A stretch of DNA of 24,831 bases, taken from positions 1 to 24,831 of IMG/VR virus record IMGVR_UViG_3300035180_000804. The stretch is one strand, 5' to 3'. The stretch is from a virus. The position numbers and the translations under genes were made by a program. Within the stretch, counting starts at the first letter, position 1. Each line of letters begins with the position of its first letter. Shown here in pieces: positions 10,132 to 24,214 of this stretch. The notes beneath the pieces were generated by a model. That model made no database searches. It was not told where the DNA came from and worked only from the letters and a program-made list of their open reading frames with translations.

Positions 10132-10584
10132 ATGGCCACGGCTCACACCCAGGTGCGCAATGCGCTGGTCGCGGCGCTGCAGCAGGCGCCAGCGCTGGCG
10201 GGCGGGCGCATCACCAGCGGACTCAAGCGGCCGGTGGTCAGCGAGTACCCGAGCCGCGTTGACGTGCAGCTGGTGCGCAGCAAGGGCGCCAGCCTGCTGG
10301 CCGGAGACGGCGCGCCGCGCACCTGGCAGACGCTGCTGGCCGTGACCGCGCTGGTGCGCGCTGCAGCGGGCGACACGCCGGATGACGATCTGGACGACCT
10401 GGTGCAGGCCGTCTCGGAGCGCATTGCGCTGCTGAGCGCACCGGCGCTGGGCGCGAGTTCGATCGCGCTCGATCCCGAGATCACCTGGGGTGTGGTCGAG
10501 GGCACACCGAATTTCGCGATGGCGCAGTGGAAGCTGACCATCACCCACGACACGGTGGGCGCCAGCCTGGCGCCGCGCCAGTGA
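10132..10584 (+). CDS. neck/tail-terminator-like protein, DUF1834 or gp37-like
   Basis: A 150-residue protein with GGGGAG upstream of ATG 10132. The N-terminus (THTQVRNALVAALQQAPALAGGRI) and the strand pattern VDVQLVRSKGASLLAG...WQTLLAVTALVRA...DDLDDLVQAVSERI...WGVVEGTPNFAMAQWKLTITHDT match the alpha/beta layout of tail terminator or completion proteins. Position after DUF1320 is that of Mu gp37 (DUF1834). It would cap the tail tube and join it to the neck. The precise family is uncertain because the tail type differs from Mu. Confidence 0.65.
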   Translation: MATAHTQVRNALVAALQQAPALAGGRITSGLKRPVVSEYPSRVDVQLVRSKGASLLAGDGAPRTWQTLLAVTALVRAAAGDTPDDDLDDLVQAVSERIALLSAPALGASSIALDPEITWGVVEGTPNFAMAQWKLTITHDTVGASLAPRQ

Positions 10585-10613
10585 ACCGTTGCACACACTG
10601 AACAGGACCGGCC

Positions 10614-10838
10614 ATGGCCAAGCGCATTGAACCCGTCATCGATCCGGAGACCGGCAAGCCGGTCGAAATGAACCCGCCTTGCGGCGGCACCTGGCTGCGT
10701 GATGCCGAGGGAGGCTTGACCCCGGCCGATGAGGCCACTGCGCGCGCCGCCGGCCTGCAGTGGGGCGATGCCACGGAGCCAGCCAGCGACACCAGCGCCG
10801 ACACGGCTTCGCCGACCACGCGCAAGTCCAGCAAGTAA
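10614..10838 (+). CDS. small DUF2635-like protein
   Basis: A 74-residue acidic protein. Residues 7-30 (PVIDPETGKPVEMNPPCGGTWLRD) have the V-x-D-P-x-T-G ... P ... x-W-x-R-D pattern of DUF2635 proteins (Mu gp38 position), followed by GLTPADEATARAAG and a disordered Ser/Thr-rich tail. Mu gp38 lies at the same place between the gp37-like gene and the tail sheath/tube genes. The role is unknown. The stretch TGAACCGTTGC at the previous stop (10582-10592) only partly resembles the 16-nt late motif. Confidence 0.55.
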   Translation: MAKRIEPVIDPETGKPVEMNPPCGGTWLRDAEGGLTPADEATARAAGLQWGDATEPASDTSADTASPTTRKSSK

Positions 10839-10873
10839 CTCACCCAGCGCCTTCAGACACTACGGAGCCCAAC

Positions 10874-11842
10874 ATGCCCGGAAGCATTCAGTCCACCGTC
10901 ATTCTCTTCAAACCGGAGACCACGTCCGGCACCGACGCTGCACCAGTTGAGGCATCCGATGCCGTGCTGGTGCGGGTGACAAACCTGAGCGTGCAGATCG
11001 ACGAAAAATTTGCCGATCGCGACGTGCTTGTCGGCGCGTTCGGCGCGTCGGATTCGCTGCCCTACGCTCGGCGCGGCACGATCAGCTTCAGCGTTGAGAT
11101 TCAGGCGTCCGGCGTGCTCGGTACGGCACCCATGTGGGGCGACTTGCTGCTGTGCTCCGCATTCAGCGAGACCGTGACGGCCACGACCCGGGTGGACTAC
11201 CTGCCTGCGAGCAGCTCGCTCAAGACCGGCACGATCTGGGCGCTGTGGAATGGGAGGCTGGAAAAGTTCAACTACGCCAGTGGCGACGTGACCGGCATGT
11301 CGTGGGAGGTCGGCAAGGTGCCGACGATGGACTACAAGTTCATGGCGCTCGTCAGCAGCTCGGCCGCCGGCTCGCTGAGCGCCCCGACGCTGACCGGCTT
11401 CAAGCGGCCGGAGGCGGTCTCGACTGCGGCGACGACCAAGTTGAGCATCGGTCCGGTGACATACACCGCCGGGGCCATCTCGGGCGGCACGCAGTACAAC
11501 TGGCAGAGCCTCAAGATCTCGATGGGCAACGATGTGCAGGATCTGGCACTGGTCGGCCAGGAGAACATCGCGATCTACGGGCGCAAGCCGACGGTCGAGA
11601 TCGTCGGCGACTTCGGCGCCACGGCCCATGCCGCCTTCAAGGCCGATATGCATGCCGGTACCACCCGGGCGTTTGGCTTCATCCACGGATCGGCCGCGAC
11701 GCTGAAGGTCGGCGTGCATGCCCCGGTTGGCGTGATCACCGAGGTCTCCGACCAGGTCAACGGCAACGTGATGCTCGACAAGCTCAAGATGACCTTGCGC
11801 CCGAGCACCGCGAACGACGAACTGCGCATCTTCTGCATCTGA
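10874..11842 (+). CDS. major tail tube protein
   Basis: A 322-residue beta-rich protein. The start is ATG 10874 with GGAG 6 nt upstream; in-frame codons further upstream run into the preceding gene and are not used. The pattern is that of siphovirus tube proteins: conserved opening strands (IQSTVILFKPETTSGTDAAP), ADRDVLVGAFGASDSLPYARRGTISFSVEIQASGVLG, and MWGDLLLCSAFSET. It also has a late ISMGNDVQDLALVGQENIAIYGRKPTVEIVGDF repeat of the same fold. It polymerises around the tape measure to form the non-contractile tube. Position before the tail chaperone and tape measure confirms the role. Confidence 0.85.
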   Translation: MPGSIQSTVILFKPETTSGTDAAPVEASDAVLVRVTNLSVQIDEKFADRDVLVGAFGASDSLPYARRGTISFSVEIQASGVLGTAPMWGDLLLCSAFSETVTATTRVDYLPASSSLKTGTIWALWNGRLEKFNYASGDVTGMSWEVGKVPTMDYKFMALVSSSAAGSLSAPTLTGFKRPEAVSTAATTKLSIGPVTYTAGAISGGTQYNWQSLKISMGNDVQDLALVGQENIAIYGRKPTVEIVGDFGATAHAAFKADMHAGTTRAFGFIHGSAATLKVGVHAPVGVITEVSDQVNGNVMLDKLKMTLRPSTANDELRIFCI

Positions 11843-11852
11843 CGGACTGGCC

Positions 11853-12203
11853 ATGATCAAGCTCACCCCGAATCCGACCTTCCGCGCCACGCTGGCGCTC
11901 ACCGTGCCAGGCAACGCCGAGGGCGCCAAGGTGGAGTTCGAGTTCTGCCACAAGGGGCTGTCGGCGCTCGACGCCTGGATCAAGAAGCCGGCGTTGATGG
12001 CGCGCGAGGGCGTCACGCTCAGCAGCACGCAGTACCTGGATGAGGTGATCGCCTCCTGGTCCGGTCCGGTGGACGAGCACGGTGCCGACGTGCCCTACAG
12101 CCCCGAGGCGCTGCAGAAGCTGCTCGATGCCTACTCGCCGGCCGCGCAGGAGATCTACGACGGCTACCGCAAGCAGCTGGAGACCAGCCGGGTAAAAAAC
12201 TGA
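11853..12203 (+). CDS. tail assembly chaperone (lambda gpG position), zero-frame product
   Basis: A 116-residue protein starting 10 nt after the tube gene. It has the layout of phage tail assembly chaperones: LTPNPTFRATLALTVPGNAEGAKVEFEFCHKGLSALDAWI, then DEVIASWSGPVDEHGADVPYSPEALQKLLDAYSPAAQEIYDGYRKQL, a helical C-terminus. It coats the tape measure before tube assembly. The last codons GTA AAA AAC are followed directly by TGA, forming the slippery sequence A AAA AAC, so a fraction of ribosomes probably shift to the -1 frame and add the domain encoded at 12200-12619. Confidence 0.87.
   Translation: MIKLTPNPTFRATLALTVPGNAEGAKVEFEFCHKGLSALDAWIKKPALMAREGVTLSSTQYLDEVIASWSGPVDEHGADVPYSPEALQKLLDAYSPAAQEIYDGYRKQLETSRVKN
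12194..12200 (+). promoter_or_regulatory. -1 ribosomal frameshift site, A AAA AAC
   Basis: The heptamer AAAAAAC is in the correct phase (A AAA AAC; codons GTA AAA AAC) immediately before the zero-frame TGA at 12201. It is the tail-chaperone position where lambda and many siphoviruses use a -1 shift. After the shift, translation continues at CTG 12200 without a stop to 12619. Confidence 0.75.
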
Positions 12204-12619
12204 GGGCCGCCGCCCGGGCCGTGCTGGAGGGGACGTCGCTGCCGCGTGACGAGACAACCCCCGCACAGCGCGGGAGTACGGCGGCGGCGGATCCGATGGC
12301 CGAGTACCAGGCCGCGCTGGACGCGTTCGGCGCGGTCGATCCGCATGCGCACGAGTTCGTGTCACGGCACAAGACCGGCTCGCACGGTGATGTGGATCTG
12401 TGGCCGGAGAACCACGATGCCTGGCAGCTCTTCGAGTGCATGCAGACCCAGTGGCGCACCGCCAACGGCGTGGTGATCGGCCTCGACTACGGGCCTCTGT
12501 CCTGGGTGTGTCCACGGGTCGGCATCGAGCCACAGAACGAGCGCCGGGTGTTCCAGGATCTGCGCGTGATGGAAGACGAGGCACTCGCCTGGTTTGACGA
12601 GCAGACGCGCAAAGACTGA
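12200..12619 (+). CDS. frameshift extension of tail chaperone (lambda gpT-like, DUF1799)
   Basis: This -1 frame adds 139 residues to the 116-residue chaperone, giving a 255-residue fusion. Conserved content begins near MAEYQAALDAFG and includes FVSRHKTGSHGDVDLWPENHDAWQLFECMQTQWRTA and GPLSWVCPRVG, the pattern of DUF1799 proteins, which in related phages sit directly before the tape measure. A free start is unlikely: the first possible GTG (12221) has no ribosome binding site at the right distance. As in lambda gpGT, this domain should recruit tube subunits to the coated tape measure. Confidence 0.75.
   Translation: MRAAARAVLEGTSLPRDETTPAQRGSTAAADPMAEYQAALDAFGAVDPHAHEFVSRHKTGSHGDVDLWPENHDAWQLFECMQTQWRTANGVVIGLDYGPLSWVCPRVGIEPQNERRVFQDLRVMEDEALAWFDEQTRKD
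12206..12288 (+). promoter_or_regulatory. predicted stimulatory RNA stem for the frameshift
   Basis: GCCGCCGCC (12206-12214) is perfectly complementary to GGCGGCGGC (12280-12288). The 9-bp GC stem would begin 5 nt after the slippery heptamer, a typical spacer. Inside the loop CCCGC/GCGGG (12260-12264 and 12270-12274) can form a second stem. A competing 4-bp hairpin GGGC/GCCC at 12204-12215 is possible. The structure is read by eye and no energy was computed. Confidence 0.45.
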
Positions 12620-12630
12620 CAGGAGCCAGC

Positions 12631-15600
12631 ATGGCAGACATCGGGGCCAAGATCGTCATCACGGCTGACAACAGCAATGCGATGACGGGCCTGCGCCAGG
12701 TGCGCGAAGAGGCGGGCAAGCTCGGCCCGGCTGCCGCCACCTCGGCACAGCAGGGCGCCCAGGCGCTGACGCAGCAGGGAGCAGCCGCCACCCGCGCCGC
12801 CGCAGAGACGGCCACGGCGGCAGCGGCCACCACCCAGGGGGCTGCTACCACAGCGGCGGCCAGCGAGCATGCAGCCCAGGCCAGCCGGCAGCAGGGCGAT
12901 GCCGCCACGGGCGCAGCCACCCAGACCACCGAGGCCAGCCGCACCACGGCGGCCGCCACCAGCCAGGGTGCTGCAGCGGCAGCTGCGGCCAGTGACCGCA
13001 CTGCCCAGGCGAGCCGGCAGCAGGCAGAGGCTGCTACGGGCGCGGCCACCAAGACCTCGGCGGCCAGTGGCACGACATCGAGCGCAGCAAGCCAGAGCGC
13101 CGCAGCGACTGCCGCCGCCAGCGACAAGGCGTCGCAGGCCATGCACGGCCAGGCAGAGGCGGCGGGAGTCAGCGCGCGCCAGACGGCTGCGGCCATGCGC
13201 ACGCTGCCAGCCCAGTTCACCGACATCGCGACCAGCCTGGCCGGCGGCCAGAACCCGCTGCTCGTCTTGATGCAGCAAGGCGGGCAGATCAAGGACTCGT
13301 TCGGCGGCATCGGGCCGGCCGCGCGGGCGCTGGGCGGCTACGTGGCTGGCCTGGTCGGGCCGTTCACGTTGGCGGCTGGTGCGGCAGCAGTGCTGGCTGT
13401 GGCGTACTCGCAGGGCAGCGACGAAGCGCAGGCGTACTCGCGGGCACTGATATTGAACGGCAACGCCGCCGGGCTGACGGCGGACAAGCTGCAGGCCGCT
13501 GCGGCACGCATCGACGGTGTTGTGGGCACACAGGCCGCTGCGGCCGCTGCCCTGGCCCAGTTTGCCGGTGCCACGGCCATCGATCCGAGCGGCATGGAGC
13601 AGTTCGCGACCGCTGCGCTGAAGATGGAGCGGGCGGTCGGTACCAGCGTGGCGGACACGGTCAAGCAGTTCTCGGCGCTCGGCCAGGCGCCGCTGCAGGA
13701 GTCGATCAAGCTCAATGCCCAGATCAACTACCTGACGGTCTCGACCTACCAGCAGATCCGCGCGCTGACCGAGCAGGGCAAGACCGTCGAGGCCGCCGCA
13801 GTGGCGCAGAAGGCGTATGCCGACGCGCTGGAGTCGCGCGCCGGGCAGATCGAGGAGCGCCTCGGCACCTTCGAGCGCATGTGGCGCGGCGTCAAGAGCG
13901 CGGCGGCCGAAGCGTGGGATGCGATGCTGGGTGTCGGCAGGCAGGCCACGCTGGGCGACCAGATCGACGCAGCGGCCAAGAAAGTCCAGGATCTGCAGGG
14001 CTTCGTGGCCAAGGGCGGCCGCAAGGGGCTGTTCGGCGAACAGATGGACGATGGCAAGGACGAACTGGCCGCCGCCCAGGCCGAGCTGGCCCGGCTGCGC
14101 GGCCAGAAATCCGACGCGGACACGAAGGCCCAGCAGGAGGCCGACCAGGCCGAGAACGTCAAGAAGACGATCTCGGCGCAGGACTACATCGACAAGCTGC
14201 ACCAGCAGACCGATGCCACTGGCGGCCTGACCCGCGCACTGGCCGAGTACCGCCGCAACGCCGAGCAACTGGCCAAGAACGGCAGCCCGATCAATGCCGC
14301 GCAGCAGGCCAAGGACATCGAGGCCATCCGGGCCAAGTACACCGACAAGAGCGCCCTGGCCGGTGCCGACGCTGCCCTGGCGCTGCAGCGCGCCCGCGAC
14401 CAGGCGGCCAGCAACGAGCGCATCCGCGCCGTGGAGGCCGACGAGCAGGCGCTGGCAGTGACCCGTGCCCAGGGGCTCCTCAGCACTGATGACTACGAGC
14501 GGCAGCGGGTCGATATCCAGCGCCGCCGCCTGGCCGAGCGTGAAACGCTCTTGCAGCAGGAGATTGCGCTGGAGCAGCGCCGGCGCCCACCGGATGCGGC
14601 CGGGCGCACCCAGCAACAGGCGCGCGTGGTCGGCCTGCAAGACCAGCTGGCCGGCGTGCGTCAGGAGCGTACGCAGTTGCCGGTGGTGGCGCAGGCGGGC
14701 ATCGAGCAGCGGGCGCTGGAAGAGTCGCGCCAGCGCGCTCAGGAGTGGTCGCAGGCATGGACTGAGGCCAACGGCCGCGTGACCCAGCTGGCGGAGCAGA
14801 ACGCCAAGTCACGCGCCGCGCTCATCAGCGACCCCGTGCAGCGTGCTGCAGCCGAGCTGGACCTGCAGGTCGGCGAGATCCAGCGCCAGGCCAAGGAGCT
14901 GACCGACAAGCTCGATCTAAAACTCAGCTTGACCGTGGAGCCGGGGCAGCGCGAGCTGCTCCAGACGCAGATCACCGAGATCGGCGAGCAGTCCGCCACT
15001 GCCATCACTCTCGCCAACGCCGGCCTGGCCGAGCGCATGAGGCCGGGCTGGCAGAAGATGGTCGAGGGCTGGACTGACAGTACCCGGCTGATGCGGGAGA
15101 CGTTCGACACGCTGACGACCGGCATCGTCCAGCAGGGAGAAGAGGCGTTCGTCAAGTTCGGCAAGGAAGGCAAGCTGAGCGTCAAGGAGCTGGCCGACTT
15201 CATTCAGACCGAGCTGCTGCGGGCGGCATACCGCAAGACGATCGGTGCTCAGCTGGGCAATGTCACGGATGGGCTGCTGAAAAGCGCCGCCGGGGCGTTC
15301 GGGTTCGGTGGCCAGACGGCGGGCGCTGGGTTGAGAGTGCCTGGCGTGGCGCCGGCAGGTGGCGCTGTGGATGCCTCCGGGGCAGTTGGTGCCATCAGCC
15401 TGGCCGGCGGACGGCTGGGAGTACCGAGCACCGGCCCACGGCTGGGTGGTGCCCCGGCTGCTGCTGCCAGCGCTGGCGCCACCAGTGCAGCGGATGCTGC
15501 CAGTTCGTTGCAGGGCGTCAGCACGGCGGCACAGCAGGTCACTACCAATGCCACCAGCAGTGCCGCAGCGCTGGCCAGCCAGGGCCAGGTGGTGGTCGAG

Positions 15601-16320
15601 AACGCTGCAGCCACGCAGACCATGACCGCAATCACGAAGGCAACCCAGTCGGCCGAGACGTCGAAGGCGGCTGACAAGCTGGTGGAGGATGCGACCGTGA
15701 GCACCGGCATGCGGGCGGTCGGCGATGCAGCTGTGGAGACCGCCATCAAACTGAAGGTGGCTGGGGCAGTGTCAGGCGGTGCATCGGGCTCGGCAGTCGG
15801 CCACGTCTTCACGGGTGCAACGCGCTTCGCCACAGGCGGTGCATTCACGAACTCGGTGGCGACAGCGCCGACCTTCTTCAACTTCCAGCACGGCGGTCGT
15901 CAGCAGCTGGGCGTGATGGGCGAGGCGGGCGACGAGGCGGTGATGCCGCTGCGCCGCAGCGGTGGCGCGCACACGGTGGATGCGGTCGATCGCTCCGGCC
16001 GGCTGGTCGGCGGTATGCAGCTGCGGCGCGGCCCGGGCGGGCGGCTGGCGGTGCAGGCGTTTGCCGATGGCGGCACCTTCGGCAGCACGGGCGGCAGCGT
16101 GAGCACCGGGACCGGCGCCCGCCTGGCGCAGACGATGTCCCGGCCCGCCAGCGCGGCAACGGCTGGTGCCGGCAGTGGCGTGACGGTCAACTTGCGGCCA
16201 GTGATCCAGATCGACAGCCGCACCGACCAGGGCCAGATCTCGCAGCTGGTCAGCAGCGCGCTGCAGCAAGGCCGCAAGCAGATGGTCGCTGAGCTGAAGG
16301 CACAGGGAGTGATGCGCTGA
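12631..16320 (+). CDS. tail length tape measure protein
   Basis: A 1229-residue protein with AGGAG 5 nt before ATG 12631. Order: coiled N-terminus, three Ala/Thr/Gln-rich repeats (48-172), the TMP-family core (AAMRTLPAQFTDIATSLAGGQNPLLVLMQQGGQIKDSFGG, 187-226), a hydrophobic segment (234-260), long coiled coils (about 400-800), an Ala-rich low-complexity region, and the C-terminal VMGEAGDEAVMPLRR (about 1093-1107) that marks many tape measures. It sets tail length and enters the host envelope during infection. At the usual rule of about 0.15 nm per residue, it predicts a tail near 180 nm. The chaperone and its extension lie directly upstream, as in lambda. Confidence 0.95.
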   Translation: MADIGAKIVITADNSNAMTGLRQVREEAGKLGPAAATSAQQGAQALTQQGAAATRAAAETATAAAATTQGAATTAAASEHAAQASRQQGDAATGAATQTTEASRTTAAATSQGAAAAAAASDRTAQASRQQAEAATGAATKTSAASGTTSSAASQSAAATAAASDKASQAMHGQAEAAGVSARQTAAAMRTLPAQFTDIATSLAGGQNPLLVLMQQGGQIKDSFGGIGPAARALGGYVAGLVGPFTLAAGAAAVLAVAYSQGSDEAQAYSRALILNGNAAGLTADKLQAAAARIDGVVGTQAAAAAALAQFAGATAIDPSGMEQFATAALKMERAVGTSVADTVKQFSALGQAPLQESIKLNAQINYLTVSTYQQIRALTEQGKTVEAAAVAQKAYADALESRAGQIEERLGTFERMWRGVKSAAAEAWDAMLGVGRQATLGDQIDAAAKKVQDLQGFVAKGGRKGLFGEQMDDGKDELAAAQAELARLRGQKSDADTKAQQEADQAENVKKTISAQDYIDKLHQQTDATGGLTRALAEYRRNAEQLAKNGSPINAAQQAKDIEAIRAKYTDKSALAGADAALALQRARDQAASNERIRAVEADEQALAVTRAQGLLSTDDYERQRVDIQRRRLAERETLLQQEIALEQRRRPPDAAGRTQQQARVVGLQDQLAGVRQERTQLPVVAQAGIEQRALEESRQRAQEWSQAWTEANGRVTQLAEQNAKSRAALISDPVQRAAAELDLQVGEIQRQAKELTDKLDLKLSLTVEPGQRELLQTQITEIGEQSATAITLANAGLAERMRPGWQKMVEGWTDSTRLMRETFDTLTTGIVQQGEEAFVKFGKEGKLSVKELADFIQTELLRAAYRKTIGAQLGNVTDGLLKSAAGAFGFGGQTAGAGLRVPGVAPAGGAVDASGAVGAISLAGGRLGVPSTGPRLGGAPAAAASAGATSAADAASSLQGVSTAAQQVTTNATSSAAALASQGQVVVENAAATQTMTAITKATQSAETSKAADKLVEDATVSTGMRAVGDAAVETAIKLKVAGAVSGGASGSAVGHVFTGATRFATGGAFTNSVATAPTFFNFQHGGRQQLGVMGEAGDEAVMPLRRSGGAHTVDAVDRSGRLVGGMQLRRGPGGRLAVQAFADGGTFGSTGGSVSTGTGARLAQTMSRPASAATAGAGSGVTVNLRPVIQIDSRTDQGQISQLVSSALQQGRKQMVAELKAQGVMR
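12772..13146 (+). repeat. three tandem 39-43 residue coding repeats in the tape measure
   Basis: Units are residues 48-86 (39 aa), 87-129 (43 aa) and 130-172 (43 aa), i.e. 12772-12888, 12889-13017 and 13018-13146. Each begins QQ(G/A)xAAT and ends with A-A-S-(D/E)-x-x-x-Q-A. The first lacks four residues in its middle. A degenerate fourth start (GQAEAAG) follows. They probably form extended helices; gain or loss of units would change tail length in steps of about 6 nm. Confidence 0.7.
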
Positions 16321-17556: not shown

Positions 17557-17996
17557 CCGCATCACCACATCTCGGCGCCGACCTGGCTGCCTATCTGGCC
17601 TTGCAGCAGGCGCAAGCCTTTTGCTGGCAGCGCAACAACTGCTGCCACTTCACGGCGCGCTGGGTGGCACAGGTCACCGGGCGTGATCCGATGCAGGGCC
17701 TGGCAGACACACCCGACGCTCGCGCCGCGCTGCGCCTGGTGCAGCAGCTCGGCGGCGATCTGCGTGCGGCCTGGTCGCGCCAGCTCGCACAGGAGCCCAT
17801 CAGCGCGCTGCTGGCCCAGGTCGGTGATGTGGTGCTGTTCGAGGCTTTCGCAGCTGACGTGGCCGGTGTCGGCGCGCTGGTGGGCATCTGCGCCGGCCGC
17901 ACGGCCGTGGTGCTCGACGTCGTGGGCAACGTGCTGCACCTGCCGCTGACCGAAGCGGACTGCGCCTGGCGCATCACTCGTGGGGATCTGGCATGA
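17553..17996 (+). CDS. DUF6950 / NlpC-P60-like tail protein (lambda K position)
   Basis: A 147-residue protein started at ATG 17553 in a 4-nt overlap. The family core is CWQRNNCCHFTARWVAQVTGRDP at 24-46 and VGDVVLFE at 90-97, with a final HLPLTEADCAWRI. It matches the pattern W-x-x-x-DC-C-x-F-x-A-x-W-V-x-x-x-TGRDP of DUF6950. The usual Asp-Cys is Asn29-Cys30 here, and the histidine expected of an active NlpC/P60 peptidase after GDV is not obvious. A peptidoglycan-cutting role is therefore open. It ends in an ATGA overlap with the tip gene. Confidence 0.75.
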   Translation: MTASPHLGADLAAYLALQQAQAFCWQRNNCCHFTARWVAQVTGRDPMQGLADTPDARAALRLVQQLGGDLRAAWSRQLAQEPISALLAQVGDVVLFEAFAADVAGVGALVGICAGRTAVVLDVVGNVLHLPLTEADCAWRITRGDLA

Positions 17997-20900
17997 AGCG
18001 ATGGGGATTTGTCATCGTCGCTGCAGCCCTGGCTGCAATCCCGGCTGTTGCTGCTGCCGATCCGGTCACGATCGTGGCGACGGCCATGATCGTCCTCGGT
18101 GAGGGGATGGTGGTCTACGCCGGCTATGCGCTGCTCGTGGCTGCGGCCGTCTATGGCGCCGCCAATGCCCGCAGGCAGGCGCGCCGCGCCGCCGCCCAGG
18201 CGCGTGCCGAGTACAACGCCCGGCTGACCGAGCGGTCCGTGACCGTGCTGGCGGCCGACCCGCCCTGGCAGGTGGTCTACGGCCGCTGCCGGGTCGGTGG
18301 CTACGTGGTCGGCATGCTCACGACCGACAAGATCGGCATGCTCGACAACGGCAACTACCGCACCAAGCCCGACGGCTACCGGCACCTGGTGATCGCGATC
18401 GCAGCACACGAGGTGCAGGACATCCACGAGATGTACATCCAGGGCGTGCCGATCGGTGCCACGGATGCGACCGGCTGGGCCACGGCGGGGCCGAGTGAGG
18501 CGCCCTGGGGCAAGGTGAAGCGGGCGATCATCGAGTCGCCCACGGCACTGACGTTCAGTGCGGCCGGTCAGTGGTCGTTCGATCCGGTGCTGTTCGCCAA
18601 CAAAACCATCGTCAAGGTGCTGGCTGCCAACACCCAGCCGCTGAGTTCGAACGCGGATGGCGGCCCATCCGGAACGGCCTACTCGCTCACGGTGGCCGGT
18701 CCGCGCACCATCGGCGGCGCGCCGGCCAACGCGCAGCTCTACGTCAGCTGCGAGATCGAATGGGTCGAGTCCTGCGTGCGCTGGACCAAGCACCTGGGCA
18801 CCGACACCCAGACCGTGGACACGTACCTGAACGGTGTTGCTCCGGCTGACTGGACGGTCAACCACCGACTGCAGGGCCATGCCTACGTGACGGTGACGCT
18901 CGACCTTGAAGACCCGCGCTTCCAGGGTGGCGTGCCCGGCATCAACTTCGACGTGTCAGGCCGCAAGGTGCTCGACCCGCGCACCGGCACGACGGTCTGG
19001 ACGCGCAACCCCGCGCTCATCATCTACGACTGGCTGCGCCAACCCTGGGGCTACGAGTGCGCCGCGCAGGACGTGGACACCGCCAGCGTGATCACTGCGG
19101 CCAACGCTTGCGACGTGGCGATCAGCCTGACCGTGGGCACCACCACCGAGACCGGCCAGGCGACGTACACCTGCGACGGCGCCTTCACCACCGAGGCCAG
19201 CAAGGAAAGCGTGCTCGAAGACCTGGCAGAGACCATGGGCGGCTTCGCCAACTACGGTGCGAAGTGGAGCGTGCATGCCGGCATGTGGACGGCGCCGGTG
19301 ATGACGCTCACCGATGACTACCTGGCCGGCCCGCTGCAGATCGTGCAAGCCGGGGTCGGCATGGACGCCGCCTTCAACGGCGTGCGCGGCACCTACATCC
19401 AGAGCGGCACCGACACGCCCAGCGACATCGAGCCGTACAAGAACGCCTCCTACGTGACGGCCGACGGCCTGGAGCTGTGGACCAACGTCGGCCTGCCGTA
19501 CACCAACCACAAGGCGCGGGCCCGCAACCTGTGCCGGGTGATGGTGGAGCGCAACCGCGATGGCCTGGTGGCGCAGTACCCGGCCGACCTGCGCGCCTGG
19601 CCGCTCGAAGTCGGCGACCGGGTCAGCGTCACGAACACCGAGTACGGCTGGACCGCCAAGACCTTCCGGATCACCGACTGGCAGTTCGATCTGACCAGCG
19701 CAGTGGTGCTCACGCTGCAGGAAGACGCCGCCACGATCTACGACCTGGCCGATGCCTCGGCCGCCGATGCCGCACCGAACACCACGCTGCCGAACCCCTG
19801 GGCCATCGAGCAGGTCGCCGGGCTGGTGGCCACCAGTGGCACCGCCACGCTGATGCTGCTCGCGGACGGCACGATCGTGCCGCGTGTCCTGGTGACGTGG
19901 ACCGCGCCGACCTCGGCGCACATGAGCGGCACTGGCGCCCGCACCGAGGTCGAGTGGACGACGATCGGCTCCAGCACCTGGATGCGCGGCGCCACCCTGG
20001 GCGGCGACAACAGCCTCTACCTGGGCGGTCTGCGCGACGACGGCAGCTACCTGAAGATCCGGGCCCGCCACATCAACACAGCCGGCATCGATGGCCCCTG
20101 GGTGACCATCGTGCACCAGGTCATCGGCAAGTCGGCCGTGCCGGCCAACGTGGCCGGCCTGGCCGCCACCGTGGTGCAGGGCGGCGTGCGCATCAACTGG
20201 ACCGCGAGCAGCGAGATCGACTACGCCAGCACCCAGCTGCGCATCGGCACCAGCTGGGCCTCGGCCACACCGCTGGCCGACATCAAGGGCAACACCTACA
20301 CCTGGCCCTGGCCGGCCCAGGGCAGCTACACCCTCCTGGCGCGACACCTCGACACCAGCGGCGGCCTGAGCGCTGCAGCGGCATCGACAGCCGTGGTGGT
20401 CGATGCCAGCGCGCTGGTGCAGTGGAACAACATCACCGGGCAGCCGCAGCAGGGGCGCAACCTGGTGGACACGAGTGAGTGGGTTGCCGGCCTGGCCGAT
20501 GCGGCAGTGCCGTGGCTACGGATGCAGAGCACCGCTGGCGAAAACTCCATCATCTTGAATGTCGGCCCCAGAGGTGTTGGTGCGATGTTGTGGCGGGCGG
20601 TGGCATCGGGCGATAGCGCCACCAGCGTGAATGCCGATGGCGGGTTCGCGGCCAGCTATCCGACTGGCAAGCATATCGTTCCAGATGTAAATAAGGCCTA
20701 TCGTGTGGTCGTGCCGGTCAAACGGGTCGGTTCGACTGTCTCTGGAACCTGCTATGTGGGCATCGCGCCGCAATTCCCGGCGGTCGCACATATCGCCAAC
20801 CTCAACACCACGACGTTCAACAACAACCCGTACTTTGAAGGCATTGGCATGTCAGCACTGCCGGCCGACGTGTGGTGCGTCGTGGTGGGTTACGTCTACC

Positions 20901-23900
20901 CGGCTGGCAGTACCGGCATGAGTCACGATGGCTCTGGTGTCTACCGCTGTGACACCGGCAGCCTGGTCAGCGCCGGCACCAATTTCTGTTTCATGGCTGG
21001 GGCTACGATCTTTGGCGTGCGTGCTTTCCAGTACGGCTGCACCGTCGCCGGCACTGAACTGCACATCGGCGAGCCGCAGATCCACATCGCCGACGGCACC
21101 GAGCCCAGCATCCTGGCCCTGATGGGCGACGGTGCCTGGCGCGGCATTGCTGCCGTGCTCAGCAACGACAGCCACACCGTGCCGGCGGACAGCGCAGGCG
21201 TGGTCAGCACGTTTGCCGGTGCCGCCAGCACGATCACCGTGCTGCAGGCCGGCGCCGACACCACGGCGAGCTGGACGATCACGAAGGCCGACAGCGGCTG
21301 CACAAGCACCTTGGCTGGCACCACGGTGACTGTGACCGCGCTGGCAGCCGATGTCGGGTATGTGGACATCACAGCCACCAGACCGGGCTACGCGACGCTC
21401 ACACGGCGCTTCACCGTGGCCAAGGCAAAGGCCGGTGCTGCAGGTGCGGCCGGCGCGCCGGGCGCCACCGGAGCAACAGGCGCGACCGGTGCTGCTGGCG
21501 CCGCCGCCACCGCCTACTGGATCGAGCGCAGCGTGGGCGCCATCGGCAAGAGCGTTGCGGGCGTCTACACCCCGGCGACCGTGACGTTCAACGCCCGCTC
21601 GGCCACGGGTGCCGCCGCGCCAGCGGCCTACGCTGGCCGGTTCATCGTCGAGCAGACGACCGATGGCACGACCTGGACGACGGTCTACACCAGCGCCGCC
21701 AACGAGGCGAGCCGCACCCAGACACCGGCAGCAGGCATCAAGGCCTTGCGCGTGACGCTCTACCTGGCCGGCGGCACGGTGACGCAGCTCGACCAGGAAG
21801 TCGTGCCGGTCGTTGTCGATGGTGCGACGGGTGCCACTGGATCGACGGGCGCTACGGGGCCGACCGGCATATCTCCGATCTCGGTGATTCTTGGCAACGA
21901 GGCCCATGTCCTGCCCGCTGATGCATCTGGCAATGTCATCAGCTATGCGGGCAGCGGTACTACGGTATCGGTCTATCAAGGCAGCACGCTGCTTTTGTAT
22001 GACGGGGTTGGTACTTCAGCCGGGACTTGGCGGTTTTCTGGCTCGACATCTGTCAACTACACATTTGGGGCAGTGACGACGTCCAGCGGTGTTGCAGTCG
22101 TGGCGGATGGATCTGGGGTTGCGGTTGGTATCGATACGGCTAGCGCGACGTTTGGCATTGTTGGAAAAGCTCTTGACGGTACAGCGCTATCTATTTCACG
22201 GATACAAACGTTCGGCAAATCAAAGCAAGGCTCAGCGGGGGCTGCAGGCGCCACCGGAGCGACGGGTGCGGCCGGTGCTGCTGGCGCCGCCGCCACCGCC
22301 TACTGGCTGGCGCGCAGCGCCGGGGCCATCCGGCGCAGCGTGTCGGGTGCTTACACGCCAGCCAGCCTCACGGTCACGGCCTACAGCGCCACGGGCACCG
22401 GCGCGCCGGCTGCCTATGCGGGCCGATTCGTGATCGCCACCAGCACGGACGGCAGCACCTATACCGCCGCATACACCAGCGCCGCCAACGAGAGCAGCAC
22501 CGCCTACACGCCGCCGGCTGGTGTGGTGTCGCTGCGCCTGCGTCTATACCTGGCTGGCGGAACGACCACGCTGCTGGATGAAGAGGTGGTGCCAATCGTC
22601 AAGGATGGCATGGGCGTCACCCTGGTCGATGCCAGCAGCTGGGTGCCTGGATCTGCCACGCCCTGGCCGACTTATGAGGATGTCACCGGCGAGACCAGCA
22701 TTGTCTGGGCGCCCGGTATCAAAGGTGCCAGCGTGCCGGTGATGCAGTGCCTGGCGGACAGCATCAACAAGATCTGCCAACCCGAAGCGATTTCATCCAC
22801 TGCAACATGGTTTCCGTGCCAGACCGTCACAGGGGTTGCTGACACGTTTGCGGTGGATGCCACCACTTTCTATACAGGCACATCGAGCTTCAAACTGACG
22901 AAGGCGACGCTGGCTACAAATGCACAGGGGCGAGCCAGTCGCGCGATTGCAGTGACGCCCGGTCAGGTCTATCGCGTCCGGGTGGCAGTCAAGGGTGATA
23001 CGGCCACGGCGACGGGCGTTTATGTGCGCATCCACCAGGCGGCAGCGCTCCCGAGCAGTGGGGCGATTAACGAGACCAACCGATCCGGATTCACTGTCAT
23101 TCAGGACAACGGCGCTGTCACGACATCGTTTGTGGTCAAGAGCCTGACATACACCGTGCCGGCTGGCGTCAATGCGATATCTCTGGGTGTGTTCTCGTGG
23201 GCCAATGGGCCGCTGAATCTGTGGTTTGACGAGCCCGTCATCAATCTGGCATCCGGCACAGACAGTGCGGTAGGCCCGAGACAGAATTACGAAGGCGGTT
23301 TCGCCGCTGGCGCAGCGAACTCATTTGTGCCGGACACCACCAAGACCTACCGGTTCGTGATCCCGATCTGGCGTGACAGCGATGCAGCGTTCGGGTACCA
23401 GTATTTTGGCCCGGAGGCAAACAAGGTCTGCAACCTCAACACCAGCACACCAAACGGCAATCCGTACTTCGAGGTACAAGCCAACACACTCACTGCCGGC
23501 CGGTGGTACCTCGCTGTTGGCTACGTCTATCCGGCCGGATCAACCGGCATGACGAACAACGATGCGGGTGTCTGGGATACGCTGACTGGTGCGAAGGTGT
23601 TCAGCGGCACAAACTTCTGCTGGCTGGCTGGCGTGACATCGTGCGGCATTCGAGCGCTGCAGCATGTGGCCGACACAGGGAGCAAGACGCTGTTCGGGCA
23701 GCCGCTGGTGCATGTGGTGGATGGCAACGAGCCGCCGCTGCGGACGTGGCTGGCGGTGAGTACGACGGACATTGCGCCGGGTGCTGCAACAGCAATCTAT
23801 GAGACTGTTACGCCATCGATAAGTGTCTGGAACAATGGCAATTCTGCATTGGTTGGTACTTTGAATTTTACAGCAGATGCTGACGGAATTGTTTCCATAA

Positions 23901-24214
23901 GAGCCAGTGGTGCTTTTAGTGTTGTATATGATGCATATTCTGCAGGCCCTGGGAGCAACGTGGCATGTAATTTTTATTTGAATGGCACAAAAAACTTGCT
24001 TCCACTTAGTCTTCCTGGCGTATCAATTGGTGGCCCTGGAGATGGTGTGCATCCTGCTGGATTAATTAGCTCTTTATACTTTCTTGATTCTTCTGTACCT
24101 GCTTCCAATGGAGATATATTTAGTTTTTACGTAGTCTGTTATGCGCCAGCTTCCACATCGACAACAAATAGTGTTGCTAGCGGAACAATTCATGCTGAAT
24201 TAATAAAGAGGTAA
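17993..24214 (+). CDS. tip attachment / receptor-binding protein, lambda J-like, multidomain
   Basis: A 2073-residue protein. Residues 1-65 hold two hydrophobic segments, the first resembling a signal peptide, then Arg/Ala-rich sequence. The tip core runs about 80-590, ending in the TLQEDAATIYDLADA pattern typical of J-like proteins. Two fibronectin-III-like domains span about 596-805. Then come modules C1 (823-1045), A1 (1051-1147), collagen 1 (1148-1171), B1 (1172-1276), collagen 2 (1277-1291), A2 (1292-1412), collagen 3 (1413-1433) and B2 (1434-1538). C2 (1543-1914) follows, with an extra domain inside, and last an AT-rich tip (about 1920-2073). The protein should close the tail tip and bind the host surface. 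It overlaps the previous gene by ATGA and the chaperone follows. Confidence 0.88.
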   Translation: MKRWGFVIVAAALAAIPAVAAADPVTIVATAMIVLGEGMVVYAGYALLVAAAVYGAANARRQARRAAAQARAEYNARLTERSVTVLAADPPWQVVYGRCRVGGYVVGMLTTDKIGMLDNGNYRTKPDGYRHLVIAIAAHEVQDIHEMYIQGVPIGATDATGWATAGPSEAPWGKVKRAIIESPTALTFSAAGQWSFDPVLFANKTIVKVLAANTQPLSSNADGGPSGTAYSLTVAGPRTIGGAPANAQLYVSCEIEWVESCVRWTKHLGTDTQTVDTYLNGVAPADWTVNHRLQGHAYVTVTLDLEDPRFQGGVPGINFDVSGRKVLDPRTGTTVWTRNPALIIYDWLRQPWGYECAAQDVDTASVITAANACDVAISLTVGTTTETGQATYTCDGAFTTEASKESVLEDLAETMGGFANYGAKWSVHAGMWTAPVMTLTDDYLAGPLQIVQAGVGMDAAFNGVRGTYIQSGTDTPSDIEPYKNASYVTADGLELWTNVGLPYTNHKARARNLCRVMVERNRDGLVAQYPADLRAWPLEVGDRVSVTNTEYGWTAKTFRITDWQFDLTSAVVLTLQEDAATIYDLADASAADAAPNTTLPNPWAIEQVAGLVATSGTATLMLLADGTIVPRVLVTWTAPTSAHMSGTGARTEVEWTTIGSSTWMRGATLGGDNSLYLGGLRDDGSYLKIRARHINTAGIDGPWVTIVHQVIGKSAVPANVAGLAATVVQGGVRINWTASSEIDYASTQLRIGTSWASATPLADIKGNTYTWPWPAQGSYTLLARHLDTSGGLSAAAASTAVVVDASALVQWNNITGQPQQGRNLVDTSEWVAGLADAAVPWLRMQSTAGENSIILNVGPRGVGAMLWRAVASGDSATSVNADGGFAASYPTGKHIVPDVNKAYRVVVPVKRVGSTVSGTCYVGIAPQFPAVAHIANLNTTTFNNNPYFEGIGMSALPADVWCVVVGYVYPAGSTGMSHDGSGVYRCDTGSLVSAGTNFCFMAGATIFGVRAFQYGCTVAGTELHIGEPQIHIADGTEPSILALMGDGAWRGIAAVLSNDSHTVPADSAGVVSTFAGAASTITVLQAGADTTASWTITKADSGCTSTLAGTTVTVTALAADVGYVDITATRPGYATLTRRFTVAKAKAGAAGAAGAPGATGATGATGAAGAAATAYWIERSVGAIGKSVAGVYTPATVTFNARSATGAAAPAAYAGRFIVEQTTDGTTWTTVYTSAANEASRTQTPAAGIKALRVTLYLAGGTVTQLDQEVVPVVVDGATGATGSTGATGPTGISPISVILGNEAHVLPADASGNVISYAGSGTTVSVYQGSTLLLYDGVGTSAGTWRFSGSTSVNYTFGAVTTSSGVAVVADGSGVAVGIDTASATFGIVGKALDGTALSISRIQTFGKSKQGSAGAAGATGATGAAGAAGAAATAYWLARSAGAIRRSVSGAYTPASLTVTAYSATGTGAPAAYAGRFVIATSTDGSTYTAAYTSAANESSTAYTPPAGVVSLRLRLYLAGGTTTLLDEEVVPIVKDGMGVTLVDASSWVPGSATPWPTYEDVTGETSIVWAPGIKGASVPVMQCLADSINKICQPEAISSTATWFPCQTVTGVADTFAVDATTFYTGTSSFKLTKATLATNAQGRASRAIAVTPGQVYRVRVAVKGDTATATGVYVRIHQAAALPSSGAINETNRSGFTVIQDNGAVTTSFVVKSLTYTVPAGVNAISLGVFSWANGPLNLWFDEPVINLASGTDSAVGPRQNYEGGFAAGAANSFVPDTTKTYRFVIPIWRDSDAAFGYQYFGPEANKVCNLNTSTPNGNPYFEVQANTLTAGRWYLAVGYVYPAGSTGMTNNDAGVWDTLTGAKVFSGTNFCWLAGVTSCGIRALQHVADTGSKTLFGQPLVHVVDGNEPPLRTWLAVSTTDIAPGAATAIYETVTPSISVWNNGNSALVGTLNFTADADGIVSIRASGAFSVVYDAYSAGPGSNVACNFYLNGTKNLLPLSLPGVSIGGPGDGVHPAGLISSLYFLDSSVPASNGDIFSFYVVCYAPASTSTTNSVASGTIHAELIKR
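20459..21112 (+). repeat. module C1, first copy of a duplicated domain
   Basis: The encoded stretch from NLVDTSEWV to HIADGTEP pairs with the segment at 22619-23735 (TLVDASSWV to HVVDGNEP). Shared marks are GGFA, VPDxxKxYR, NLNT(T/S)xxxNPYFE, VGYVYPAGSTGM and GTNFC(F/W)xAG. It is probably a carbohydrate- or receptor-contacting beta domain. Confidence 0.75.
21434..21505 (+). repeat. collagen-like hinge 1 (eight Gly-X-Y triplets)
   Basis: Eight consecutive Gly-X-Y triplets, mostly GAA and GAT with one GAP, link modules A1 and B1. Such hinges form short triple helices in phage fibers. Its 3' end belongs to the 35-nt exact repeat shared with hinge 3. Confidence 0.85.
21486..21520 (+). repeat. 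35-nt exact direct repeat, copy 1 (hinge 1/module B1)
   Basis: These 35 bases are identical to 22272-22306 and lie at the junction of the collagen-like hinge and module B. The match is longer than needed to encode the shared residues and suggests a recent duplication or gene conversion. Confidence 0.85.
21506..21820 (+). repeat. module B1, first copy of a 105-residue duplicated domain
   Basis: The 105 residues from ATAYW to VVVD align without gaps to the 105 residues encoded at 22292-22606; by hand count 67 are identical. Conserved blocks include APAAYAGRF, YTSAANE and LYLAGGT. Confidence 0.85.
21821..21865 (+). repeat. collagen-like hinge 2 (five Gly-X-Y triplets)
   Basis: Five triplets (GAT, GAT, GST, GAT, GPT) separate module B1 from module A2. 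The base composition changes right after it, since module A2 is visibly richer in A and T. Confidence 0.8.
22229..22291 (+). repeat. collagen-like hinge 3 (seven Gly-X-Y triplets)
   Basis: Seven triplets (GSA then GAA and GAT types) link module A2 to B2. It shares the exact 35-nt repeat (22272-22306) with hinge 1. Confidence 0.85.
22292..22606 (+). repeat. module B2, second copy of the 105-residue domain
   Basis: Ungapped partner of 21506-21820. It starts with the same ATAYW encoded by identical bases and ends in EEVVPIVKD against QEVVPVVVD. Confidence 0.85.
22619..23735 (+). repeat. module C2, second copy of the C domain, split by an inserted domain
   Basis: The flanks (TLVDASSWV...; YEGGFAAG...HVVDGNEP) match module C1. 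About 170 residues encoded at roughly 22770-23283 have no counterpart in C1. The inserted part (TFYTGTSSFKLTKA ... VTPGQVYRVRVAVKG ... LWFDEPVINLA) has the jelly-roll pattern of carbohydrate-binding modules of the CBM4/9 type. Confidence 0.65.

Follow-up and report, generated by a model that had tools for sequence, protein, structure and literature searches.

A predicted lambda G/GT-type −1 frameshift site abutting the stop codon of a DUF1799-associated tail assembly chaperone gene, and its conservation among relatives

The tail chaperone locus

The window analyzed here, by which is meant the whole stretch of DNA, is a virus record of 24,831 bases. Its head module is Mu-like (Portal_Mu, Mu-like_Pro and Mu-like_gpT domains), and its tail module is siphovirus-like and includes the tape measure domain TMP_2. 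The combination of a siphovirus-like tail module with Mu-like head genes characterizes the window as a whole (bp 1–24831). When bp 10500–13500 were used as a nucleotide query against a phage collection, no record matched more than 80% of the query.

On the plus strand of the tail module, the tail tube gene (Phage_tube_2; bp 10760–11842, with its true start probably inside this open reading frame) is followed by a gene for a 116-residue, G-like tail assembly chaperone (bp 11853–12203), a T-like extension in the −1 frame (bp 12197–12619) and the tape measure gene (TMP_2; bp 12631–16320). This order of tail tube, G, T and tape measure is the placement seen in lambda G/GT-type loci. The chaperone matches the Phage_TAC_4 family (PF08748) over residues 2–116 with a score of 41.7 bits (curated cut-off 21.1; E 1.6e-10), and 56 of 60 aligned chaperone relatives match the same family (E 0.001). 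The T part matches DUF1799 (PF08809) at its residues 63–131 with 76 bits (curated cut-off 26; E 2.8e-21), and this was its sole match in a Pfam scan. Thus the −1 frame does run into a DUF1799-like domain, as an earlier note on this DNA had proposed.

The AlphaFold2 model of the chaperone has a mean pLDDT of 92. Helix 97–115 closes the modeled chaperone and helix 2–10 opens the modeled T part; because the first protein ends and the second begins in a helix in these predictions, one continuous helix spanning the G–T junction is plausible. Comparison of the chaperone model with the HK97 tail assembly chaperone (2ob9) by VIA-align gave Z 2.9 and an rmsd of 5.1 over 88 aligned residues. Sequence searches of the PDB found nothing credible, the best Foldseek matches against the PDB had E values of only 0.82 and 0.94, no tail protein was prominent in the VIA structure list for the T model, and none of five proteins scanned against NCBIfam had a match. 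The part of the downstream tape measure gene that encodes the N-terminal region contains about two copies of a 129-nt (43-codon) repeat with 74–78% matches (bp 12818–13160).

The slippery heptamer and the −1 frame

The 3′ end of the chaperone gene reads GTA AAA AAC TGA. The heptamer A_AAA_AAC (bp 12194–12200) is in phase for a −1 tandem slip and abuts the TGA stop codon (bp 12201–12203), just as the earlier note had it. The −1 frame is open from bp 12044 to 12616, with its stop codon at bp 12617–12619, and after a slip it reads K-L-R-A-A-A-R and continues to DUF1799. The predicted fusion has 255 residues (116 + 139), the length originally given for it.

Conservation of the heptamer among relatives

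The comparison covers 183 loci: the window, nine named phages, and 1, 80, 80 and 12 loci from later scans. The nine named phages came first, by tblastn. A single-protein scan of viral contigs then gave one relative with T and none with the chaperone, and genome contigs scanned with T alone gave none. Alignment-based scanning of viral contigs contributed 80 further loci, a bacterial genome scan another 80, and divergent DUF1799 phages the remaining 12; phage Loki (L103) and a short piece of phage Sushi (L105) are excluded from the 183. Two loci, L012 and L015, failed a position filter, and an earlier filter that kept 89 of 91 had dropped L015 and L038; all were restored to the set, the latter pair by reading. 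Statistics on stimulators and start codons use 85 representatives drawn from the 180 loci that have a heptamer. A start-finding script yielded chaperones from 71 of these 85, and 60 are in chaperone alignment A5; alignment A6 holds 50 T parts, and alignments A7 and A8 have 35 and 31 rows.

All nine named phages carry A_AAA_AAC or G_GGA_AAC in phase, with the stop codon abutting it in eight and lying 3 nt on in the ninth (PseuP_222). Over the whole set an in-phase slippery heptamer is present at the G–T junction in 180 of 183 loci, window included, as AAAAAAC in 72, GGGAAAC in 106 and GGGAAAT in 2. As a control, the ends of 1393 other plus-strand open reading frames of at least 100 codons (stop to stop) from the same loci and the Loki record were examined; one has such a heptamer, and it is the chaperone of Loki. 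AAAAAAC and GGGAAAC alternate among relatives: the tree of the 85 representatives, built from few columns and with numerous unresolved forks, shows 8 changes, and well-supported branches make at least 2 of them unavoidable. Each switch alters a residue in the 0 frame (Lys-Asn versus Gly-Asn) as well as the third base of the preceding codon, so it is slipperiness, and not the protein sequence, that appears to have been kept. The −1 frame residues K and L at the slip are invariant in the 50 aligned T parts, and the −1 frame is therefore coding from the slip onward. Judged by these sequence comparisons, conservation of the heptamer is the decisive evidence for a frameshift site here, and a chance heptamer is rejected; the loci share descent, however, and so the 180 are not independent events.

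Three of the 183 loci are exceptions to the full heptamer. Phage Koroua has the junction CAA AAG TAA, with the tetramer A_AAG directly at the stop codon, and Sushi has GCA AAA GTT TAA, with A_AAA one codon before it. In the third, a Photorhabdus australis locus (L133, around positions 1992–2018), the A-run is one base longer and the chaperone and DUF1799 consequently share one open reading frame, which counts in favor of the frameshift reading; the fusion may be natural, or the prophage may be decaying. Two other loci, from Superficieibacter (L109) and Pantoea (L115), have two in-phase heptamers 12 nt apart near positions 1990–2005: AAAAAAC sits at the stop codon, and the one upstream of it is GGGAAAC or GGGAAAT. 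These double sites are possible intermediates in heptamer replacement.

A frame change at a run of As could in principle mark a broken gene or a sequencing error, and homopolymer runs are generally error-prone. The identical frame relation recurs, however, in 180 loci, whether taken from phage records, from viral contigs or from bacterial genomes; a broken gene is rejected as contradicted by this conservation, and the chance that either explanation holds is negligible. Slippage during transcription on the A-run, which would yield a mixed mRNA population, part of it a base longer or shorter, and so join the frames, must also be weighed. The window has six consecutive As, and the longer A-run of L133 does join the frames; yet 108 of the 180 loci have GGGAAAC or GGGAAAT, with no run over three, and whatever the mechanism is, it must serve both types. 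In other systems transcriptional slippage has been associated with longer runs, of >7 A, in the portion of the source available (PMC3711429). Since G_GGA_AAC has no long homopolymer, tRNA slippage is favored, and transcriptional slippage seems highly improbable.

Translation of the T part

T lacks a usual start. In the window the GTG at bp 12221 sits 18 nt past the chaperone stop codon, a position that might suit coupled re-initiation after the TGA, and an ATG lies at bp 12296. Translation of T alone from one of these codons would agree with public annotations, which frequently give T as a gene of its own. The Shine-Dalgarno match of the GTG is poor, however (−2.1 kcal/mol), whereas that of the ATG is moderate (−5.0 kcal/mol), and a shorter separate product from the latter is conceivable. 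Among the 85 representatives, 26 lack any start codon and 54 lack an ATG over the opening 25 codons of the −1 frame. The earlier note had suggested looking among relatives for loci with no slippery sequence and a strong ribosome binding site for the second frame, and the outcome was the opposite: beside the near-universal heptamer (180/183), a start with a strong Shine-Dalgarno sequence occurs within those 25 codons in only 6 of 85 representatives. Separate initiation leaves both the heptamer and the −1 frame coding from the slip unexplained, and we consider it very unlikely.

It thus seems very probable (we would put it at roughly 93%) that the locus uses programmed −1 ribosomal frameshifting of the lambda G/GT type to make the 255-residue fusion. 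Most ribosomes would terminate at the TGA, giving the G-like protein of 116 residues, and a minority would slip back by one base, with the tRNAs on AAA and AAC moving to AAA AAA, and read CTG AGG onward to give the G–T fusion. By analogy with lambda, G and GT would act as their lambda counterparts do, and the DUF1799-containing T part would form the link between the tail tube subunit and a tape measure protein coated with chaperone. We infer that slippage does occur and that its frequency is low. A_AAA_AAC is a weak heptamer in Escherichia coli, and it and the GGGAAAC type are both described as low-efficiency there, though nevertheless used by IS elements, in the parts of that study available (PMC4066793). 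Against frameshifting stand the doubtful stimulators of the window itself, discussed below, and the lack of a full heptamer in Koroua and Sushi. Since nearly all relatives examined carry the slippery word, the locus is a well-conserved instance of a trick already known from phages rather than a novel one.

Candidate stimulatory elements

The earlier note also described a 9-bp perfect stem beginning 5 nt downstream of the heptamer. Its arms, GCCGCCGCC (bp 12206–12214) and GGCGGCGGC (bp 12280–12288) on the plus strand, do pair perfectly and the spacer is indeed 5 nt; the loop, however, is 65 nt long, and so this is not a compact hairpin. A 107-nt fold of the window has a predicted energy of −54.2 kcal/mol (z −1.84 against dinucleotide shuffles). 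Relative to synonymous shuffles, the 40- and 60-nt downstream stretches are less structured (z +1.19 and +0.84) and the 90-nt stretch is more structured (z −2.12). Stems of at least 9 bp arise at the same place in 598 of 5000 synonymous shuffles (12%), and four of 52 representatives have one (the window, L008, L079 and L090). As a conserved element the stem was therefore rejected, being frequent in shuffles while in relatives the hairpins are different, local ones or are absent, and a role for this long-range pairing in frameshifting is unproven.

Over the 85 representatives there is a modest folding signal just past the heptamer, with a mean z-score of −0.80 (se 0.17) at +5 nt that fades by +41. 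The effect is stronger in the 42 AAAAAAC loci (mean z −1.18) than in the 43 GGGAAAC/T loci (mean −0.42), which have their peak, z −1.01, at +29. In one subgroup, of 10 loci, a local hairpin shows changes on both sides of two pairs. Support is weaker in a T1-like set of seven, where one such pair is seen, and L011, which stands closest to the window on the tree, has a 10-bp local hairpin of its own. Stimulatory hairpins thus look likely in parts of the family, and they differ between subgroups.

Upstream of the slip, the Shine-Dalgarno-like sequence CTGGAG (bp 12177–12182, plus strand; position read from the sequence) is a candidate stimulator. The predicted anti-Shine-Dalgarno duplex in the window, −6.4 kcal/mol, is equalled or bettered by 63% of synonymous shuffles; averaged over the family, the upstream pairing goes about 0.6 kcal/mol (se 0.15) beyond shuffles at a spacing of 4–6.

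Relation to known systems

The lambda G/GT tail assembly frameshift is a well-known kind, as the available part of one account presents it (PMC5009743). Like lambda, the window has a chaperone followed by a −1 extension near the tail tube and tape measure genes, and this context together with the conserved in-phase heptamer supports the G/GT-type arrangement that the earlier note had recognized. The likeness is one of arrangement. The lambda heptamer is GGGAAAG, whereas the window family has A_AAA_AAC or G_GGA_AAC with the stop codon directly at the slip. The note's contrast between lambda and AAAAAAC at a stop codon thus holds for the window, but it has to be softened in that the pattern is a family rule with printed precedents in phages KL1 and Loki.

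For Burkholderia phage KL1, a −1 frameshift joining gp18 and gp19 was predicted in 2012, according to the part of that report available (PMC3483164). Its sequence, which was checked, has GGGAAAC directly before the chaperone TGA; unlike the window, its T part belongs to PF23812 (Phage_TAC_18) rather than DUF1799, and an extra tail gene precedes the tape measure gene. A frameshift with AAAAAAC next to the stop codon was similarly predicted for Acinetobacter phage Loki gp12/gp13 in the accessible section of its description (PMC5313236). The Loki sequence bears this out, AAAAAAC adjoining the stop codon as in the window, although its T part too is PF23812. Available excerpts on the phiCbK group give AAAAAAC as the predicted chaperone slip and GGGAAAC for phage Colossus (PMC3556154); these match the heptamers of the window family, the comparison being one of heptamers. 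Mu-like siphophages of Pseudomonas aeruginosa are reported, in the portion of the paper available, to use another slip sequence, T TTT TTC, well before the stop codon (PMC4378225). Klebsiella phage Sushi has a DUF1799-like T joined to its chaperone (its public record lists a tape measure chaperone with a joined CDS), but unlike the window it has no XXXYYYZ heptamer at the junction. Outside phages, frameshifting at A_AAA_AAC has been proven in E. coli for an IS cluster with no established stimulator, as far as the available text of that study goes (PMC4066793). The heptamer there, in the same text, is that of the window, but the gene is a transposase gene and not a phage tail gene. We take this cluster to be IS1.

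The VarioGold sequence has AAAAAAC at the stop codon. Its paper is the one among those searched that mentions DUF1799, and a search of it for frameshift and slippery gave nothing. A literature search found no DUF1799-wide rule, a weak negative given that the main survey, of 2004, lay outside its scope. G and T appear as two genes in gene-caller output and in many public records, so that the fusion is missing from the annotations of DUF1799 phages; the earlier note had expected this split. The rule of AAAAAAC or GGGAAAC against the stop codon, followed by KL in the −1 frame, permits automatic annotation.

The stop codon at the slip site

What stands out is the strict retention of slip-then-stop, in the PF23812 type too. 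The heptamer abuts the stop codon in 167 of the 180 loci; among the other 13 the stop codon lies at 3 nt in 11, at 9 nt in 1 and at 66 nt in 1. With the T parts of Loki and KL1 as queries, 27 viral loci of the PF23812 type (L186–L219 set) were found, and AAAAAAC, GGGAAAC or AAAAAAT abuts the chaperone stop codon in 26 and ends 3 nt before it in 1. In six more divergent named PF23812 phages the two abut in four, and M6 and CN2 keep GGGAAAC with the stop codon 39 nt on. An hhalign comparison of DUF1799 with a two-row PF23812 alignment gave a probability of 68%, so distant homology is possible and convergence is not claimed; by this sequence measure the two T families may be distantly related at best.

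The stop codon might be a working part of the signal, with slippage competing with termination while the TGA waits in the ribosomal A site. This refines the frameshift reading rather than opposing it, and the confidences attached to the two do not sum to 1; we hold it tentatively and think it less likely than not. Besides the adjacency itself, codon choice agrees with it: among 52 representatives, an Arg that directly follows the Leu in the −1 frame is encoded by AGA or AGG in 9 of 9 cases, whereas at other places in the same reading frames 5 of 117 Arg codons are of these two types. Koroua and Sushi, though without the heptamer, would slip within 0–3 nt of a stop codon all the same. For two further collections of tail genes with frameshifts, mean slip-to-stop distances are 26 and 36 nt in the part of the source available (PMC10885494). 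On the other hand, the codon cost follows from the presence of the stop codon and shows that it is kept, not why, and fixing the C-terminus of the chaperone, or plain inheritance, would give the same pattern. M6 and CN2, as well as L015, in which AAAAAAC is kept with the stop codon 66 nt later, show by these distant stop codons that adjacency is not required.

A broader proposal, which we regard as rather speculative and probably not correct as it stands, is that the TAC_4/DUF1799 and PF23812-type families share a module in which a weak heptamer ending in AAC is set against the stop codon, and the waiting stop codon raises slippage (termination-coupled slippage) and partly replaces a downstream structure. 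The near-fixed adjacency, together with heptamers that are weak in E. coli, makes these loci a clean natural set in which stimulation of −1 slippage by a stop codon in bacteria can be examined.

Other observations in the window

The window contains two copies of AAAAAAC against 0.17 expected. The other in-phase copy, at bp 23989, leads into a −1 frame that stops within six residues and was taken as chance. It lies in a stretch of low GC content (bp 23901–24200; 42%, against 56–71% in the preceding stretches from bp 20001) at the 3′ end of a large open reading frame (bp 17993–24214), and this drop in GC suggests a recent mosaic junction.
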